Shown here: one piece after another, positions 4,539 through 12,935 of the stretch
How positions within the stretch are numbered: position 1 is the first letter of the stretch
Layout: every line of letters begins with the position of its first letter
Assembly: GCA_015486015.1 (NCBI GenBank)
Contig: WFSL01000013.1
Coordinates: 1 to 44,227 of the forward strand
DNA from: Aquificota bacterium
GTDB taxonomy: Bacteria > Thermosulfidibacterota > Thermosulfidibacteria > Thermosulfidibacterales > B14-G1
DNA: 44,227 nt
Direction: 5' to 3'
The notes under the pieces: model-generated
What the model saw: the letters and a program-made list of their open reading frames with translations, nothing else
What the model was told of the DNA's origin: nothing
The model's database searches: none
Made by a program: the position numbers and the translations under genes

Positions 4539-4615
4539 TGGTCGGGGCGAGCCGATTCGAACGGCCGACTCCCAGCTCCCGAAGCTGGTGCGCTACCAGA
4601 CTGCGCCACGCCCCG
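4539..4615 (-). tRNA. tRNA-Pro (anticodon CGG)
   Basis: A 77-base tRNA reads 5' to 3' on the minus strand. The acceptor stem pairs CGGGGCG with CGCCCCG, then discriminator A and an encoded CCA (4541-4539). The anticodon stem is CCAGC/GCTGG with loop TTCGGGA, so the anticodon is CGG. The T-loop reads GTTCGAATC. It is wedged between pcm (stop codon 4 bases upstream of the tRNA 5' end) and the SLOG gene start 15 bases downstream, so it must be cut from a transcript shared with protein genes or have a promoter inside pcm. Confidence 0.97.
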
Positions 4616-6185: not shown

Positions 6186-6262
6186 TGGTCGGGGCGAGCC
6201 GATTTGAACGGCCGACCACTGACCCCCCATGCCAGTGCGCTACCAGACTGCGCCACGCCCCG
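6186..6262 (-). tRNA. tRNA-Pro (anticodon GGG)
   Basis: A 77-base tRNA with the same acceptor, D and T arms as the CGG tRNA-Pro at 4539-4615. The anticodon arm differs: stem CTGGC/GTCAG, loop ATGGGGG, anticodon GGG. CCA is encoded at 6188-6186. It begins 4 bases after tRNA-Leu(GAG) and ends 27 bases before the SurE ribosome-binding site, so it probably shares a transcript with both. Confidence 0.97.
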
Positions 6263-6266
6263 ATCC

Positions 6267-6353
6267 TGGTGCCGAAGGCGGGACTCGAACCCGCACGGGC
6301 TAATGCCCACTACCCCCTCAAGATAGCGCGTCTACCAGTTCCGCCACTTCGGC
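6267..6353 (-). tRNA. tRNA-Leu (anticodon GAG)
   Basis: An 87-base class II tRNA. Acceptor GCCGAAG pairs with CTTCGGC, followed by A and an encoded CCA (6269-6267). The anticodon stem CTATC/GGTAG encloses loop TTGAGGG, giving anticodon GAG, and there is a long variable arm as expected for leucine. It is the first gene of the minus-strand group and lies just downstream of a sigma70-like promoter at 6392-6364. Confidence 0.96.
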
Positions 6354-6418: not shown

Positions 6419-6447
6419 TTGACGCCCTTACATCTCCATGCTATAAA
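6419..6447 (+). promoter_or_regulatory. trp operon promoter
   Basis: TTGACG (6419-6424), a 17-base spacer and TATAAA (6442-6447) each match sigma70 consensus at 5 of 6 positions. The predicted transcript start, near 6454, leaves about 14 bases before the leader-peptide start at 6468. A short GGCG/CGCC inverted repeat (6414-6417, 6423-6426) surrounds the -35; no TrpR-like operator was recognised with confidence. Confidence 0.75.
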
Positions 6448-6467
6448 TTTCTATGATGAGAGAGAAG

Positions 6468-6521
6468 ATGATATCGATTGTATGTTGGTGGTGGCACTTG
6501 GGGGTGCCACCAGCCCCATAG
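6468..6521 (+). CDS. trpL: trp operon leader peptide (TrpL)
   Basis: A 17-codon reading frame encodes MISIVCWWWHLGVPPAP and stops with TAG at 6519-6521. The three consecutive TGG codons (6486-6494) lie at the 5' edge of a hairpin that precedes a strong intrinsic terminator, exactly the arrangement of ribosome-mediated trp attenuation. The purine-rich AGAGAGAAG before ATG 6468 can serve as a weak ribosome site. In-frame ATGs at 6453 and 6456 are possible, but the promoter's likely start point is at about 6454, which favours 6468. Confidence 0.88.
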   Translation: MISIVCWWWHLGVPPAP

Positions 6522-6576
6522 TATTTGATCTTTCAGGGGCCATGGGTGGCACCTAAACACCCATGGCCTTTTTGTT
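6489..6576 (+). promoter_or_regulatory. trp attenuator (mutually exclusive RNA hairpins)
   Basis: Region 1 (6489-6497) pairs perfectly over 9 bp with region 2 (6504-6512), loop of 6; region 1 contains the last two Trp codons. Region 2 (6503-6511, GGTGCCACC) can instead pair perfectly over 9 bp with region 3 (6545-6553, GGTGGCACC). Region 3 also supplies the 5' arm of the terminator (6538-6548 with 6558-6568). A ribosome stalled at the Trp codons would mask region 1, free region 2 and prevent termination. A ribosome finishing at the stop codon would cover region 2 and allow it. All pairings were checked base by base. Confidence 0.9.
6538..6576 (+). terminator. Intrinsic terminator of the trp attenuator (3:4 hairpin)
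   Basis: GGCCATGGGTG (6538-6548) and CACCCATGGCC (6558-6568) form a perfect 11-bp stem with a 9-base loop, followed by TTTTTGTT. It lies inside the trp leader, upstream of trpE, and overlaps the antiterminator arm. Confidence 0.92.
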
Positions 6577-6584
6577 ATCATGGG

Positions 6585-6609
6585 CCGTGGGAAAGATCCA
6601 CGGTTTTTT
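6585..6609 (+). terminator. Second terminator-like hairpin before trpE
   Basis: CCGTGG (6585-6590) and CCACGG (6598-6603) form a perfect 6-bp stem with a 7-base loop followed directly by six T residues. It ends 6 bases before the trpE Shine-Dalgarno sequence. CCCATG of terminator region 4 (6560-6565) is complementary to CATGGG (6579-6584) just before this hairpin, so the two elements could interact. Confidence 0.68.
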
Positions 6610-6624
6610 ATTATGGAGGAGGCC

Positions 6625-7992
6625 ATGCTGGTGAAGGAAACGATCCTCGAGAGGAGGGAGCACTTGCTCGTAGGTGAGCGGAGGGCCGACTTGGAAACCC
6701 CTGTATCTATCTTTATGAAACTGCGCCCAATGGGGGCCAATGTCCTCTTGGAGAGTGCTCAGGAGGGTAGGTACTGGGGAAGGTACTCTTTTATTGCCTT
6801 TGGAGAGCCCTGCTTCACTTTTGAGGAGGCGGATTGGCGAGCGTGGGATGAGGTGAGGCGTTTCTTAAGGGATCATCACAGCATGTCATTGATAGATCTG
6901 CCACCCTTTCAGGGAGGACTCGTGGGCCATGTCTCATACGATGCCGTGACTCATATGGAGCCTGTGCCACTTCCACCTGAAGGGCTTATACCAGTCCCAC
7001 AAATGGCCCTTCTGAAAGTGAACAATCTCTTGGTTTTGGACAATTTGAAAGGTTGTCTCTTCTATGTGAGTCGGGACCCCTTGGGAGAGAGCTGGGCCAA
7101 GGAGGTTGAGGCAATACTCTCTACCCCTTTAGAGCCCGCCTCTCAAGGTGATTCATCTTCCTTAGAGGCACAATTGACGTCTACCTTTACCCCTCAGGCA
7201 TACATGGAGGCTGTGGAGAGGACTGTGGAGTATATCAGGGCAGGAGATGCGATTCAGGTGGTGTTGGCCCAGATTCTCACCATCCCTTCACCCGTGGAGC
7301 CATTTTCCCTTTACCGCTCCCTGCGGCATGTGAATCCTTCTCCCTATATGTTCTTCCTGGACATGGGGGCATATCAATTGGTAGGTTCTTCTCCTGAGGT
7401 AATGGTACGTCTCACTGGGAGATTGGTAGAGACCCGGCCTATAGCAGGTACCAGGCCTAAGACAGGGGATCCTGCTGGGGACCAGGCTGCCGTGGAGGAG
7501 CTCCTCTCCGATGAGAAGGAGGCAGCGGAGCACGTGATGCTGGTGGACTTGGCCAGGAATGACTTGGGGCGAGTCTCGGAGATAGGCACTGTGGAGGTGA
7601 CAGAGTTTAGGAAGGTGGAGGCGTACTCTCACGTTTTCCACTTGGTCTCTCATGTGAAGGGAAGGCTGAGAGAAGGACTTGATGCCATAGATGTAATCCG
7701 GGCTACATTCCCGGCAGGCACACTTTCTGGGGCTCCAAAGGTAAGGGCTATGCAAATCATATCTGAATTGGAGCCTGTGAAGAGGGGCTTCTATGGTGGT
7801 ACGGTAGGCTACTTGGACTATGGTGGCAATATGGACACATGTATTGCCATCCGCTCTCTCATCCACAAAGATGGGAAGTATTACTTGGGGGTGGGGGCTG
7901 GGATTGTGGCGGATTCTCTTCCTGAGAGGGAGTATGCTGAGACCATTAGCAAGGCCAAGGGGATGCTTTCAGCTTTGGGGATAGTGCCATGA
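6625..7992 (+). CDS. trpE: Anthranilate synthase component I
   Basis: The large subunit (455 residues) converts chorismate plus ammonia to anthranilate, the first step of tryptophan synthesis. The N-terminal feedback-inhibition motif LLESA (residues 41-45) and NPSPYMFFLDM point to Trp-regulated TrpE rather than PabB. Chorismate-binding motifs include SSPEVMVRLTGRLVETRPIAGTR, DEKEAAEHVMLVDLARNDLGR and FPAGTLSGAPKVRAM. I choose ATG 6625 because GGAGG (6615-6619) is 5 bases before it. In-frame ATGs at 6580 and 6613 lie before the second terminator hairpin and at the ribosome site respectively. It overlaps trpG by 4 bases. Confidence 0.95.
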   Translation: MLVKETILERREHLLVGERRADLETPVSIFMKLRPMGANVLLESAQEGRYWGRYSFIAFGEPCFTFEEADWRAWDEVRRFLRDHHSMSLIDLPPFQGGLVGHVSYDAVTHMEPVPLPPEGLIPVPQMALLKVNNLLVLDNLKGCLFYVSRDPLGESWAKEVEAILSTPLEPASQGDSSSLEAQLTSTFTPQAYMEAVERTVEYIRAGDAIQVVLAQILTIPSPVEPFSLYRSLRHVNPSPYMFFLDMGAYQLVGSSPEVMVRLTGRLVETRPIAGTRPKTGDPAGDQAAVEELLSDEKEAAEHVMLVDLARNDLGRVSEIGTVEVTEFRKVEAYSHVFHLVSHVKGRLREGLDAIDVIRATFPAGTLSGAPKVRAMQIISELEPVKRGFYGGTVGYLDYGGNMDTCIAIRSLIHKDGKYYLGVGAGIVADSLPEREYAETISKAKGMLSALGIVP

Positions 7993-8564
7993 AAGTCTTG
8001 GTGATAGACAACTACGATTCCTTTACCTACAACCTGGTACACATGCTGGGGGTGCTTGGGGCCAAGGTTCACGTGGCAAGGAACGACGATCCCCTTTTGG
8101 ATGATCCCCTTGAAGGCTTTCAGGCCTTAGTGGTGAGCCCAGGTCCTTGCACACCTATGGAAGCGGGGAAGAGCCTCGAGGTGATTCGCCGTTGGAGCGA
8201 GGAGCTCCCTATCTTGGGGGTTTGCTTGGGGCATCAGTGCCTCGCCTCGGCCTTTGGAGGGAAGGTGAAAAGGGCTAAAAGGCTCCTTCATGGCAAGGTC
8301 TCCCCCATATTCCACCATGCGGAAGGGCTGTTTGAGGGCCTGCCAAGTCCCTTTACAGCCTGTCGGTACCACTCTTTAGTGGTGGGGGATCTGCCCAAGG
8401 GGCTGAGGGTGACTGCTACGGATGAAGAGGGTGAGGTAATGGCTATTGCCCATGTAACTCTGCCGCTTTTTGGGGTCCAGTTCCATCCGGAGGCCTATCT
8501 CACCCAGTACGGAAAGGAGCTTATATCCAACTTCTTGCGGATTGCACAGGGGGTAGGGAGATGA
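7989..8564 (+). CDS. trpG: Anthranilate synthase component II (glutamine amidotransferase)
   Basis: This 191-residue class I glutaminase subunit supplies ammonia to TrpE. The catalytic triad is visible: Cys79 in LGVCLGHQ, and His166 with Glu168 in GVQFHPEA. It begins VLVIDNYDSFTYNLVHML and carries LLHGKVSPI, both typical of TrpG/PabA. A TrpG may also serve folate synthesis with a PabB encoded elsewhere. It starts in an ATGA overlap with trpE and ends in one with trpD, so the two synthase subunits are translationally coupled. Confidence 0.95.
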   Translation: MKVLVIDNYDSFTYNLVHMLGVLGAKVHVARNDDPLLDDPLEGFQALVVSPGPCTPMEAGKSLEVIRRWSEELPILGVCLGHQCLASAFGGKVKRAKRLLHGKVSPIFHHAEGLFEGLPSPFTACRYHSLVVGDLPKGLRVTATDEEGEVMAIAHVTLPLFGVQFHPEAYLTQYGKELISNFLRIAQGVGR

Positions 8565-9577
8565 GGGCGATCTTGGAGAAGGTGCTTTCTGGCCATGTGC
8601 TGGATCACAGGGAAGGGGAGGAGGTTTTCGGCGCCATGATGGATGGGCTTATGCCTCCCCTATTGATGGCTGCCCTCTTGGCTGGGCTCAGGGTTAGGGG
8701 AGAGGCGCCTGGCGAACTGGCGTCTCTGGCAAGGGTGATGATGGGACGTGCGATAAAGATCCACCCTAAGAGGAGGCCCTTAGTGGATACTTGCGGCACA
8801 GGGGGAGACGGTCAGGGTACTTTAAATATTTCTACCCTCGCTGCCCTTGTGGTAGCTGGAGCGGGGATTCCTGTAGCCAAACATGGAAATCGCTCTGTCT
8901 CCAGCAAGTGTGGCAGTGCCGACGTCTTAGAAGCCCTGGGGCTGAACGTGGCCCTTTCCCCTGAGGACGTGGAAGGCTCTATTGACGAAACGGGTTTCGG
9001 TTTCCTGTTTGCTCCCCTCTTTCACCCTGCCATGGCCCATGCTGCTCCTGTACGGAAGGAGTTGGGGGTGAGGACTATCTTTAACATGCTTGGTCCCATG
9101 GTGAATCCCGCCGGTGTGGAGTATCAAGTGGTGGGAGTCCCTACTGTGGAGGGTGCCAGGACGGTGGCCCATGCCTTTCAGTCTATGGGAAAGGAGAAGG
9201 TTATTGTGATCCATGGGATGGAGGGACTTGACGAGGTGAGTCCCCAGGGAGATACACTCCTCTTGGAGGTGACCGAGGACGGGATAGTGGAGGGGATCGT
9301 TACCCCTTCCTTTTTTGGTTATCCCTCTGTTCCCCTGGACGAGCTTCGAGTGGGTGGTAAGGAGGAGGCAAAGGAAAGGGCTTTAAGGCTCTTGAGGTTA
9401 AACGATGATCCCGCCCTCTATGCGGTGCTCATGGAAGGGGCGTTGGCTATATACTGTGCGGGTAAGGCTTCTACTATTTTGGAGGGGGCAAGACTGGCGG
9501 AGGAGTCCCTCTTTTCTAAAAGGGCCTTGGGGGTATTGGAGAGGGCGGTGGAGTTCTCTCAGCGGGTTCGGTCGTGA
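8561..9577 (+). CDS. trpD: Anthranilate phosphoribosyltransferase
   Basis: This 338-residue enzyme joins anthranilate to PRPP. The PRPP/Mg site is DTCGTGGDG (about residues 76-84), followed by NISTLAALVVAGAGIPVAKHGNRSVSSKCGSADVLEALG. FNMLGPMVNPA and HGMEGLDEVSP are also family signatures. Length is normal. It is a stand-alone enzyme, not fused to trpG as in enterobacteria. The ATG overlaps trpG and the stop overlaps the GTG of trpC. Confidence 0.96.
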   Translation: MRAILEKVLSGHVLDHREGEEVFGAMMDGLMPPLLMAALLAGLRVRGEAPGELASLARVMMGRAIKIHPKRRPLVDTCGTGGDGQGTLNISTLAALVVAGAGIPVAKHGNRSVSSKCGSADVLEALGLNVALSPEDVEGSIDETGFGFLFAPLFHPAMAHAAPVRKELGVRTIFNMLGPMVNPAGVEYQVVGVPTVEGARTVAHAFQSMGKEKVIVIHGMEGLDEVSPQGDTLLLEVTEDGIVEGIVTPSFFGYPSVPLDELRVGGKEEAKERALRLLRLNDDPALYAVLMEGALAIYCAGKASTILEGARLAEESLFSKRALGVLERAVEFSQRVRS

Positions 9578-10353
9578 GTAGGGATTTCTTGCATACGATT
9601 GTTGAGAGAAAGAGGGAGGAGATAGCTTCTCTCTTAAGGGAGTTTCATTTGTTTCGTGCCGAGGAGTATCAGGGGAATGAGAGGCCTTCCTTCCTTTCAT
9701 CCCTCACCATGGGTCTCCCGCCCCGGATTATAGCTGAGGTAAAGCGTGCTTCTCCCAGCAAGGGAGCTCTTAATCCTTCCTTGGATCCTGCAAATCAGGC
9801 TTGCCTGTATCAAAAGGGTGGAGCCGTTGCCGTTTCTGTCCTTACCGACTCCCACTTTCAAGGTACCCTTGGCGACCTGAGGGCCGTGGCAGATGCCGTT
9901 GACTTGCCTGTGCTTCGTAAGGACTTTATCTTGGATCCTGTTCAACTCATAGAGGGTCTTGCAGCTGGGGCTTCTGCGGTGCTCCTCATAATAGCCATCT
10001 TGGATGGGGATACGGTAGGCAGGTTGGTAGAAGAGGCCCTAAGAATGGGGTTGGAGCCCCTATTGGAGGTACATAGTGAAGGGGAACTCGAGGTGGCCCT
10101 ATCCACCAGGGCCAGGGTTATCGGCATCAATAGCCGTGACCTCAGGACCTTCGAGGTGGATTTAGGGGTAGTGGAGGCCTTGGCTCCCTTAGTTCCTCAG
10201 GATAGGGTGGTAGTGGCGGAGAGTGGTGTGTCTAATCGGAGAGATATGGAGAGGCTCATGGCCGTCGGGGTGGAAAACTTTCTTGTTGGGGAGGCCTTGG
10301 TTAGTGCAAGCGATCCAGTGGCCAAGTTGAGGGAGTTAAAGGGTTATGGTTAG
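9574..10353 (+). CDS. trpC: Indole-3-glycerol phosphate synthase
   Basis: This 259-residue TIM-barrel enzyme decarboxylates and closes the ring of CdRP to give indole-3-glycerol phosphate. Motifs: IIAEVKRASPSKG (catalytic Lys), AVSVLTDSHFQGTLGDL, LPVLRKDFILDPVQL, IGINSRDLRTFEVDL, and VVAESGVSNRRDM. The GTG start lies in a GTGA overlap with trpD. The last 8 bases overlap trpF in another frame. It is a monofunctional enzyme, not the TrpC-TrpF fusion of enterobacteria. Confidence 0.96.
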   Translation: MSRDFLHTIVERKREEIASLLREFHLFRAEEYQGNERPSFLSSLTMGLPPRIIAEVKRASPSKGALNPSLDPANQACLYQKGGAVAVSVLTDSHFQGTLGDLRAVADAVDLPVLRKDFILDPVQLIEGLAAGASAVLLIIAILDGDTVGRLVEEALRMGLEPLLEVHSEGELEVALSTRARVIGINSRDLRTFEVDLGVVEALAPLVPQDRVVVAESGVSNRRDMERLMAVGVENFLVGEALVSASDPVAKLRELKGYG

Positions 10354-10975
10354 GGTGAAAATCTGTGGTATCACGCGTCAGGAGGATGCCTTAGCAGCCA
10401 TGAGGGCTGGGGCTCATGCGCTGGGGCTGGTCTTTTATCCCCAAAGTCCACGTTTCGTTTCGCCCTCTTTAGCCAAGAGAATGATTTCCTCCTTGCCTCC
10501 CTTAGTCTCTTGGGTGGGTGTTTTTGTGGATTACCCTGTGGAAGGCGCCATTGAGACTGCCCGTCAAGTAGGTGTAGACACCATCCAACTCCATGGTCGT
10601 GTATCGCCCTATGAGTGTCGTTATTACTTAGAAAAGGGATTCAAGGTGATAAGGTCTGTAAGGGTGGGCTCGGAGGAAGACTTGAAGGGCATAGAGAAGT
10701 ACCGTGGCGCCGTGTCTGCTATCCTGCTGGACACCAAGATCCCTGGCCTGTATGGTGGGACGGGAAGAACGTTTCCGTGGGAGTTGGCGAGGTTGGTGGA
10801 GGGATTTCACGTGATTCTGGCAGGGGGGCTTAACCAGGACAATGTGGCTCAGGCCATTGGGGAGGTCCGACCCTGGGGAGTGGATGTATCATCTGGGGTG
10901 GAGAAGGAGCCTGGGATAAAGGACCATCGGTTGATGGAGCTCTTTGTAAGGAGGGTCATGGAGGTGCGAGGATGA
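10346..10975 (+). CDS. trpF: Phosphoribosylanthranilate isomerase
   Basis: This 209-residue TIM-barrel isomerase converts PRA to CdRP. Signature segments are [20 protein letters not shown] (catalytic Cys), [40 protein letters not shown] (general acid Asp) and [11 protein letters not shown]...GVDVSSGVE. It overlaps trpC by 8 bases and trpB by 4, consistent with coupled translation. Confidence 0.95.
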
Positions 10976-12147
10976 ATAAGGGGACGACGAGGGCGTTGAG
11001 ATTTGGGGGGCGGTATGTAGCAGAGACCTTGTATACCCCCCTGTTGGAGTTGGAGGAGGCCTGGATGGCCTGTACTCAGGATCCAGGCTTTGAAGAGGAG
11101 CTTGGTAGCCTCCTTGCCTCTTATGTAGGGAGACCTACCCCCCTTTATTTTGCTGATCGTCTCAGTCACGAGGTGGGTTGCAAGGTGTATCTCAAAAGGG
11201 AGGACCTTTGCCACACAGGTGCCCACAAAATCAACAATACACTAGGTCAGTGCCTGTTGACCAGGAGAATGGGGAAGACCAGGGTGATTGCTGAGACGGG
11301 TGCGGGTCAGCATGGGGTGGCCACTGCTACCGCTGCGGCCCTCTTGGGATTGGAGTGTGAGGTGTATATGGGGGTCCAGGATATGAGGCGCCAGGCACTG
11401 AACGTCTTTCGCATGGAGCTGCTTGGAGCAAGGGTGATCCCTGTTGAGGGGGGAAGTCAGACCTTGAAGGATGCTATCAATGAGGCCTTGAGGGATTGGG
11501 CAGCCAATCTCGACAGTACCCACTATGTGATCGGCTCTGTGGTGGGCCCCCATCCTTATCCCACTATGGTAAGAGATTTCCAAGCTGTGATTGGCAAAGA
11601 GGCTAAGCGCCAGATCCTGGAGGCAGAGGGCCGCCTACCCACCCACTGTGTAGCATGTGTGGGTGGCGGTTCCAATGCCTTAGGTCTCTTTTATCCTATG
11701 GAGGGGGATCCTGTGGAGTTCATAGGGGTGGAGGCGGCTGGCGCAGAGACCCTCTCTCTCCGAGGGGAGCCTGGGGTGTTGCATGGTTTTCACTCTTATT
11801 TCATCCAGGATCCCCATGGACAGATTATACCTACAGATGCCATCGCTGCTGGTTTGGACTATCCCGGTGTGGGACCTCAGCATAGCATTTATAGGGAGAC
11901 AGGTAGGGCCAGGTACTTTTCCATTTCTCGTGAGGAGGCCCTGAGGGGTTTTGTCACCCTCTCCCGCTTGGAAGGAATCATTCCTGCCTTGGAGAGTGCC
12001 CATGCTGTGGGGTGGCTATTGGCGCATAAGGAGGAGCTTTCTCCTGATGCCCTGGTGGTGGTTTGCCTTTCAGGCAGGGGTGATAAGGATGTTCAGTCGG
12101 TGGAGGAGATGCTCTCGGCTAAAGGGTCTGGATTGGAGTGTGTGTGA
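10972..12147 (+). CDS. trpB: Tryptophan synthase beta chain
   Basis: This 391-residue PLP enzyme condenses indole with serine. PLP lysine Lys86 lies in [13 protein letters not shown], and the phosphate loop is [10 protein letters not shown]. Other blocks are [40 protein letters not shown] and [10 protein letters not shown]. Residue spacing and length match TrpB1, the partner of TrpA, rather than the longer TrpB2. It starts in an ATGA overlap with trpF; its stop shares one base with the trpA start. Confidence 0.97.
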
Positions 12148-12935
12148 TGGGCGATGTAAGCGAGAGATTGAACGAGATCAGGGGATGCGGGGTCAAGGGG
12201 ATCATACCCTATATAGTGGCTGGGTATCCCAGCCTTTCAGCTTCCATGGAGCTGCTATTGGCCTTGGGAGAGCAAGGGGCCACGGCTATTGAGGTAGGGA
12301 TCCCCTTTTCTGATCCTATGGCGGACGGTCCAGTGATACAGGAGGCCCATGCCCATGCCCTTAGGGAAGGCGTCACTCCTATTTCTATTTTGGAGGCCTT
12401 GGATCAGCTTAAGGGGAAGGTGAATATGCCCCTTATCCTCATGACTTACTATAATCTTGTTTTTCGCATGGGTGAGGAAGCCTTTGCCCAGATGGCCAAA
12501 GGAGCAGGGGTGGCAGGTGCCATTATCCCGGATTTGCCTCCGGAGGAGGCTGGAGATTGGATAGAAGCGGCCAATGTAGAGGGCCTGGATACTATCTTTC
12601 TTGTTGCTCCCAACACCCTACCCGATAGGATTGAGACCATTGCCTCTGTCACCTCGGGATTTCTTTACTATTTGGCATTGAAAGGGGTGACAGGTTCCCC
12701 CATTGAGGATCTGCAAGCAGTGGTGAGGGGCCTTGATCGGGTGAGGAAGGTGACCAATAAACCTCTCTGCGTGGGGTTTGGCATCTCCTCCCAGCAAGAG
12801 GTAAGTCAACTTTCTCCCCATTGCGATGGACTAATCGTAGGATCTTCGCTTTTAAGGGCACTTAAAGATAAAGGGATAAACGGGGCGATCTCCTTCTTCA
12901 GGGCCCTTGTAGAGGCCCTTCTTATACCCCAGTGA
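12147..12935 (+). CDS. trpA: Tryptophan synthase alpha chain
   Basis: This 262-residue TIM barrel releases indole from indole-3-glycerol phosphate for TrpB. Motifs: IPYIVAGYPS, AIEVGIPFSDPMADGPVIQ (catalytic Glu and Asp), LILMTYYN, GAIIPDLPPEEA, LVAPNTLP and GVTGS, then CVGFGISSQQ. ATG 12147 follows GGAG (12135-12138) at 8 bases; an in-frame GTG at 12138 is possible. It ends the operon and overlaps the convergent alaS by 14 bases, with no terminator visible. Confidence 0.94.
   Translation: MGDVSERLNEIRGCGVKGIIPYIVAGYPSLSASMELLLALGEQGATAIEVGIPFSDPMADGPVIQEAHAHALREGVTPISILEALDQLKGKVNMPLILMTYYNLVFRMGEEAFAQMAKGAGVAGAIIPDLPPEEAGDWIEAANVEGLDTIFLVAPNTLPDRIETIASVTSGFLYYLALKGVTGSPIEDLQAVVRGLDRVRKVTNKPLCVGFGISSQQEVSQLSPHCDGLIVGSSLLRALKDKGINGAISFFRALVEALLIPQ

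Follow-up and report, generated by a model that had tools for sequence, protein, structure and literature searches.

The window, i.e. the whole 44,227-nt stretch analysed (contig WFSL01000013.1 of assembly GCA_015486015.1), carries a complete trpEGDCFBA operon behind a leader region. The genes were assigned with NCBIfam models, and their ends overlap:

6625..7992, + strand: trpE, anthranilate synthase component I
7989..8564, + strand: trpG (TIGR00566)
8561..9577, + strand: trpD (TIGR01245)
9574..10353, + strand: trpC
10346..10975, + strand: trpF (NF002298)
10972..12147, + strand: trpB (TIGR00263)
12138..12935, + strand: trpA (TIGR00262)

The trpE start is most likely the ATG at 6625 behind GGAGGAGG, and the TrpE proteins of relatives align from this codon. 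A mechanical open reading frame call places the start at ATG 6580, which sits at the edge of the second hairpin described below; ATG 6625 is preferred. Upstream of the leader, on the opposite strand, are tRNA-Leu, tRNA-Pro and surE. The tRNA-Pro(GGG) and tRNA-Leu(GAG) genes (6186–6353) are directly upstream of the trp leader and divergent from it, and an additional tRNA-Pro(CGG) gene is found at 4539–4615.

The leader itself contains the following features:

6419–6424 and 6442–6447, + strand: predicted sigma-70-type promoter, TTGACG and TATAAA with a 17-nt spacer, identified by consensus match only
6453..6521, + strand: leader peptide open reading frame, MMREKMISIVCWWWHLGVPPAP and a stop codon, with alternative starts at ATG 6456 and 6468
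6486..6494, + strand: sensor of three tandem Trp codons (TGG), read from the sequence and from orthologous trp leaders
6489..6512, + strand: 1:2 hairpin, TGGTGGCAC (6489–6497) with GTGCCACCA (6504–6512), 9 bp, the tenth pair being G-U
6503..6553, + strand: predicted 2:3 antiterminator, GGTGCCACC (6503–6511) with GGTGGCACC (6545–6553), 9 bp
6538..6573, + strand: predicted 3:4 terminator 1, GGCCATGGGTG (6538–6548) with CACCCATGGCC (6558–6568), 11 bp, then TTTTT at 6569–6573
6560..6591, + strand: predicted 4:5 antiterminator, 6560–6568 with 6583–6591, 9 bp including one G-U
6582..6610, + strand: 5:6 hairpin, predicted terminator 2, a CCGTGG/CCACGG core with G-U pairs, then TTTTTTA
6615..6622, + strand: trpE Shine-Dalgarno sequence GGAGGAGG, read from the sequence

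The first-pass annotation described a complete trp attenuator at 6453–6576, with a WWW reading frame, 9-bp 1:2 and 2:3 pairings and an 11-bp terminator with a T-tract before trpE. All of these features are present as described, and ribosome-mediated trp attenuation is well supported, but the element reaches to about 6610 and is not complete without two parts that had been missed, another conserved terminator and another antiterminator pairing, 4:5. The 2:3 pairing is extended by GCCCC (6513–6517) with GGGGC (6536–6540). Segment 4 (CCCATGGCC, 6560–6568) is complementary to segment 5 (GGCCGTGGG, 6583–6591). Hairpin 2 is found between terminator 1 and the trpE Shine-Dalgarno sequence; it spans 6582–6606 and is followed by TTTTTTATT, with a T-run at 6604–6609, and this hairpin is at the top of the terminator-scan list.

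The leader folds more stably than dinucleotide shuffles (z = -4.5). A ladder scan finds five interlocked helices (1:2, 2:3, 3:4, 4:5 and 5:6), shuffles of the leader reach at most three, with 0 of 2000 attaining four, and the leader is the sole site with at least four helices among 5879 windows on both strands. The overlap criterion was 4 nt, identical for the shuffles and the whole window; a stricter overlap gave three helices for the leader. An Rfam 15 scan of the window at the gathering score returned tRNAs only, with no hit to the T-box or any other known family; low-scoring matches, ncS16 among them, were put down to chance.

Related leaders were sought by a TrpE search of 60 and later 386 genomes, plus named genomes, and nine genomes of the order entered the comparison. 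The ladder is found before every available trp operon start of the order (7 of 7), with both hairpins, the T-tract of the second and 4:5. Following the first-pass annotation, orthologous leaders were compared for loss of the Trp codons or of 2:3 complementarity, and both are kept in all seven. The codon runs are WWWW in three relatives (G001, G002 and G004), WWW in two (G005 and G007) and WWWRW in B73_G16, a Guaymas metagenome-assembled genome (MAG) related by a TrpE that is 66% identical. In G007, which belongs to another family (TrpE 44% identical), segments 1–3 are altered, with GGTGGCACC changed to GGCAGGTCC, and their mutual pairing is intact. The host was also suggested to be a Desulfobacterota-like anaerobe, for which there is weak support; the nearest named record is the MAG ‘Deltaproteobacteria bacterium B73_G16’.

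A covariance model of segments 3 to 6 matches all nine genomes of the order, and other amino-acid operons were searched through this model, non-exhaustively. The best matches are upstream of trpE, ADTH synthase, leuA and a LivH-type permease, the last being a weak family match. ADTH synthase catalyses the first step of the archaeal-type aromatic pathway. The leader codons fit the downstream pathway: trp leaders carry WWW, leu leaders LLLSLLLL, permease leaders WWW(W), and aro leaders NWFWFYYWW or a similar run. The window's genome carries all four ladder types (contigs C13, C2, C42 and C23), and 2:3 pairing of 7–16 bp is present in all 26 elements. Weaker matches in this genome, on C24 and C14, were dropped, as they are without a convincing leader peptide.

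Several individual leaders can be described. The leader MMKMNYRIFNWFWFYYWWGLPMRSLSA (G000:C2:34.3 kb; L224:1395–1591) has codons for all three aromatic amino acids and is followed by a ladder attenuator before genes for ADTH synthase and 3-dehydroquinate synthase II. Trp leaders (HIQAWWWRG and similar) with a ladder precede the LivH-type ABC permease (G000:C23:30048–30128, L256; also L238, L253, L254 and L233), which suggests that this permease is an importer of tryptophan or other aromatic amino acids. Phe-rich or aromatic leaders (FFFF, YFWFYF) with a terminator are found before the phenylacetate-CoA ligase gene paaK (L225, L259, L260, L261 and L252) and suggest a role for the ligase in making or salvaging phenylalanine in this lineage. 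The hairpin before paaK at L225 was considered as a ladder and rejected; it resembles a standard single attenuator whose codons are Phe or mixed aromatic. An LQGWWWQTL-like leader and a strong hairpin precede a gene for an apparently exported protein of ~305 amino acids in G002, G003 and G004 (L258, L262 and L265). No Pfam match was found in the 90 residues of this protein that were tested, and its gene is a possible member of a Trp regulon.

Predicted promoters are mostly of the form TTGAC-17-TA, and the same arrangement is found at most of the 25 related elements. In the window the first leader ATG is 5 nt after the -10 element; in trp, aro and liv leaders generally the distance is 5–11 nt, most often 7, and in leu leaders it is about 30 nt and includes a Shine-Dalgarno-like stretch. 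Because the distance is so short, the aromatic leader peptides are probably read from an RNA that is leaderless or almost so, a prediction that depends on consensus matches. In Sinorhizobium meliloti the trpL RNA starts at or adjoining the leader ATG, and leaderless translation has been reported (PMC7298713); the window RNA, like trpL, probably begins at or beside its leader ATG.

Evidence for 4:5 comes from 25 trp, aro, leu and liv elements, in which it is paired in 220 of 225 cells. Two-sided changes number 18; shuffles give 5.7, and 0 of 500 reach 18. Covariation is 0.365 versus 0.248. Sister genomes and paralogous leaders are both included, so the events counted are not independent. When the partner is slid by one to three columns, pairing is at most 53%. 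In the first seven sequences 4:5 is fully paired and almost invariant. The most informative site is column pair 31:78: all five elements with a C-to-U change in segment 4 also have a G-to-A change in segment 5, and in the same five segment 3 keeps its G, forming G-U (column pair 13:31). Thus 4:5 covaries at column 31 where 3:4 does not, and is not merely inherited from the resemblance between segments 3 and 5. Helices 3:4 and 5:6 likewise covary. Cross-lineage pairing of segments 4 and 5 is an unclean control, since the window's group has GC-rich arms that pair well with any partner.

The T-tracts distinguish the two hairpins. A T-tract follows segment 6 in all 25 elements. After segment 4, the next ten bases include eight Ts in the window and at least seven in five of seven trp and four of six leu elements; B73_G16 and G005 have a degenerate tract, many aro elements have a weak one, and most liv elements have almost none. 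As segment 4 in liv and several aro elements has little or no T-tract and segment 6 always has one, 5:6 would be the terminator there, and 4:5 the pairing able to open it. Read in this way, 5:6 is the predicted universal terminator and 4:5 its predicted antiterminator, and 3:4 is at least a putative relay hairpin, which in most trp and leu elements appears to be a terminator too.

Tandem terminators behind Trp leaders were also found outside the order. A Syntrophobacterales MAG (L044), G038 and the class of G052 (eight genomes) showed them independently of the model; in that class, sister families have one terminator. The model added tandem ladders in further families before trpE, before DAHP synthase-like genes with Phe/Tyr leaders (genes recognised by sequence, not by model match) and before leuA. 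In 13 of 14 tandem leaders outside the order, 4:5 exceeds the strength that it has with a shuffled segment 5 (p < 0.02), although nine of the 14 were found with the model and are partly biased towards 4:5. Part of G052's class (L205, L206, L209, L210, L212, L214 and L217) has trpE leaders in which Tyr, Phe and Trp abound together (such as FWYWYYYY) and which are followed by one terminator.

There is a high probability that the leader is a ribosome-mediated attenuator of trpEGDCFBA, in which a ladder of six segments holds two successive intrinsic terminators. The mechanism, deduced from sequence and comparison, would operate as follows. When Trp-tRNA is plentiful, the ribosome would reach the stop codon and mask segment 2, and 3:4 would form and halt the polymerase. 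A polymerase that escaped 3:4 would then meet 5:6, which would be free to form because segment 4 is occupied. When Trp-tRNA is scarce, the ribosome would stall on WWW and mask segment 1, so that 2:3 forms; segment 4, freed by 2:3, would capture segment 5, and neither terminator would form. If there were no translation, the default of 1:2, 3:4 and 5:6 would leave the operon off.

The scheme was compared with minimum-energy folds, which are not kinetic simulations. The untranslated full-length window leader folds as 1:2, 3:4 and 5:6. With segment 1 masked, nascent RNA to segment 4 folds as 3:4. Extended to segment 5, it folds as 2:3 plus 4:5 in three relatives as well as in the window, but not in B73_G16. 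In the window, 2:3 plus 4:5 is still preferred after segment 6 is added, segment 1 being masked. In the relatives the finished RNA, similarly masked, folds at equilibrium as 3:4 plus 5:6, and therefore the on state there must be kinetic. Among the first five leaders compared, the window has the weakest 5:6 (six Watson-Crick pairs plus G-U, -12 kcal/mol), and termination there may be leaky. An alternative predicted fold in the window pairs segment 4 with the trpE ribosome-binding site.

Other explanations can be considered. The leader could be a textbook four-segment trp attenuator, with hairpin 2 an unregulated backup terminator or without a role. The classical segments are all present and suffice on paper, and Trp leaders with a single terminator are found in many other lineages. 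However, an always-on terminator before trpE would silence the operon in starvation too, conservation of 4:5 is accompanied by covariation, and a good T-tract is confined to the second hairpin in liv and some aro elements; this explanation is thus improbable. We give a somewhat smaller chance still to the proposal that segments 5 and 6 are a copy of 3 and 4, or that GGCCGTGGG is a favourite terminator stem, with 4:5 a functionless by-product. It is true that many elements have almost the same sequence in segments 3 and 5, that 4:5 is hardly variable in the first seven sequences and that a perfect GGCCGTGGG/CCCACGGCC hairpin is found at two places in the genome, one of them before paaK without a ladder. 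Yet segment 5 tracks segment 4 where segment 3 does not (31:78 versus 13:31 in the 25 elements), elements have changed both arms of 4:5 together, and 4:5 is kept in 13 of 14 tandem leaders from other families.

Hairpin 2 might instead act on trpE translation, by occluding the ribosome-binding site, and not on transcription. This would accord with its end being a few nucleotides before the Shine-Dalgarno sequence and with the predicted window fold that pairs segment 4 with that sequence, but the Shine-Dalgarno sequence (6615–6622) is outside the stem and the T-tract after segment 6 is found without exception. An effect on translation is the least probable of the explanations, and very unlikely.

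The trp attenuators of E. coli and S. meliloti share with the window leader a Trp-codon leader peptide, the 1:2, 2:3, 3:4 logic and a terminator before trpE, but have four segments and one terminator, compared with six and two. The E. coli trp attenuator leaks 10–15% with excess Trp, and TrpR does the rest (PMC1183508). E. coli trp thus combines a repressor with a leaky attenuator, whereas in the window's genome, ~97% complete, TrpR was not found, and neither was TRAP; positive controls from E. coli and B. subtilis, respectively, were matched. Two terminators under one switch should multiply repression at abundant Trp, which would suit a genome without TrpR or TRAP.

The his attenuator of Salmonella and E. 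coli sets AB, CD and EF against BC and DE (PMC4046918; PMC10989985). The ladder shares with it an off state of 1:2, 3:4 and 5:6, an on state of 2:3 and 4:5, and a last hairpin that is a terminator; 3:4 as relay hairpin is the counterpart of CD. In his, EF alone is described as followed by uridines, whereas here 3:4 also appears to be a terminator in most trp and leu elements; the liv elements resemble his, with the last hairpin the predicted sole terminator. The his leader has His codons and serves the his operon, the window leader has Trp codons and serves the trp operon, and the present ladder, unlike that of his, is found with trp, aro, leu and a transporter. For the his operon, which is without a repressor, an extra hairpin was proposed to lower basal read-through (PMC1183508). 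A second gated terminator would be a further way to low basal expression without a repressor.

In some Gammaproteobacteria the rimP leader has tandem terminators, one with a potential antiterminator (PMC2965389). Neither an amino-acid leader peptide nor a shared ladder is described for it, and the effector is probably a protein. The ermK attenuator has more than one terminator and senses a drug, not an amino acid. In Bacillus ermK, antibiotic-induced ribosome stalling on the leader open reading frame opens an intrinsic terminator (PMC5418344). No published description of a tandem-terminator amino-acid attenuator was found in the open-access literature, to which the search was confined.

We lean slightly towards the view that serial double-terminator ladders are a widespread and undescribed attenuator class. 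It would be standard in this deep lineage, for trp, aro, leu and probable Trp uptake, and present in other lineages. Acting through an RNA relay, one stalled ribosome would set two successive terminators and so reach a repressor-like tightness with no protein repressor. The model predicts two Trp-dependent 3′ ends, and 4:5 mutants that are non-inducible. An RNA relay that gates two terminators together would be a simple route to a wider regulatory range from RNA alone, and the use of one chassis with exchangeable leader codons brings to light a regulon in an uncultured lineage and allows functions to be predicted, e.g. that of the LivH-type permease.
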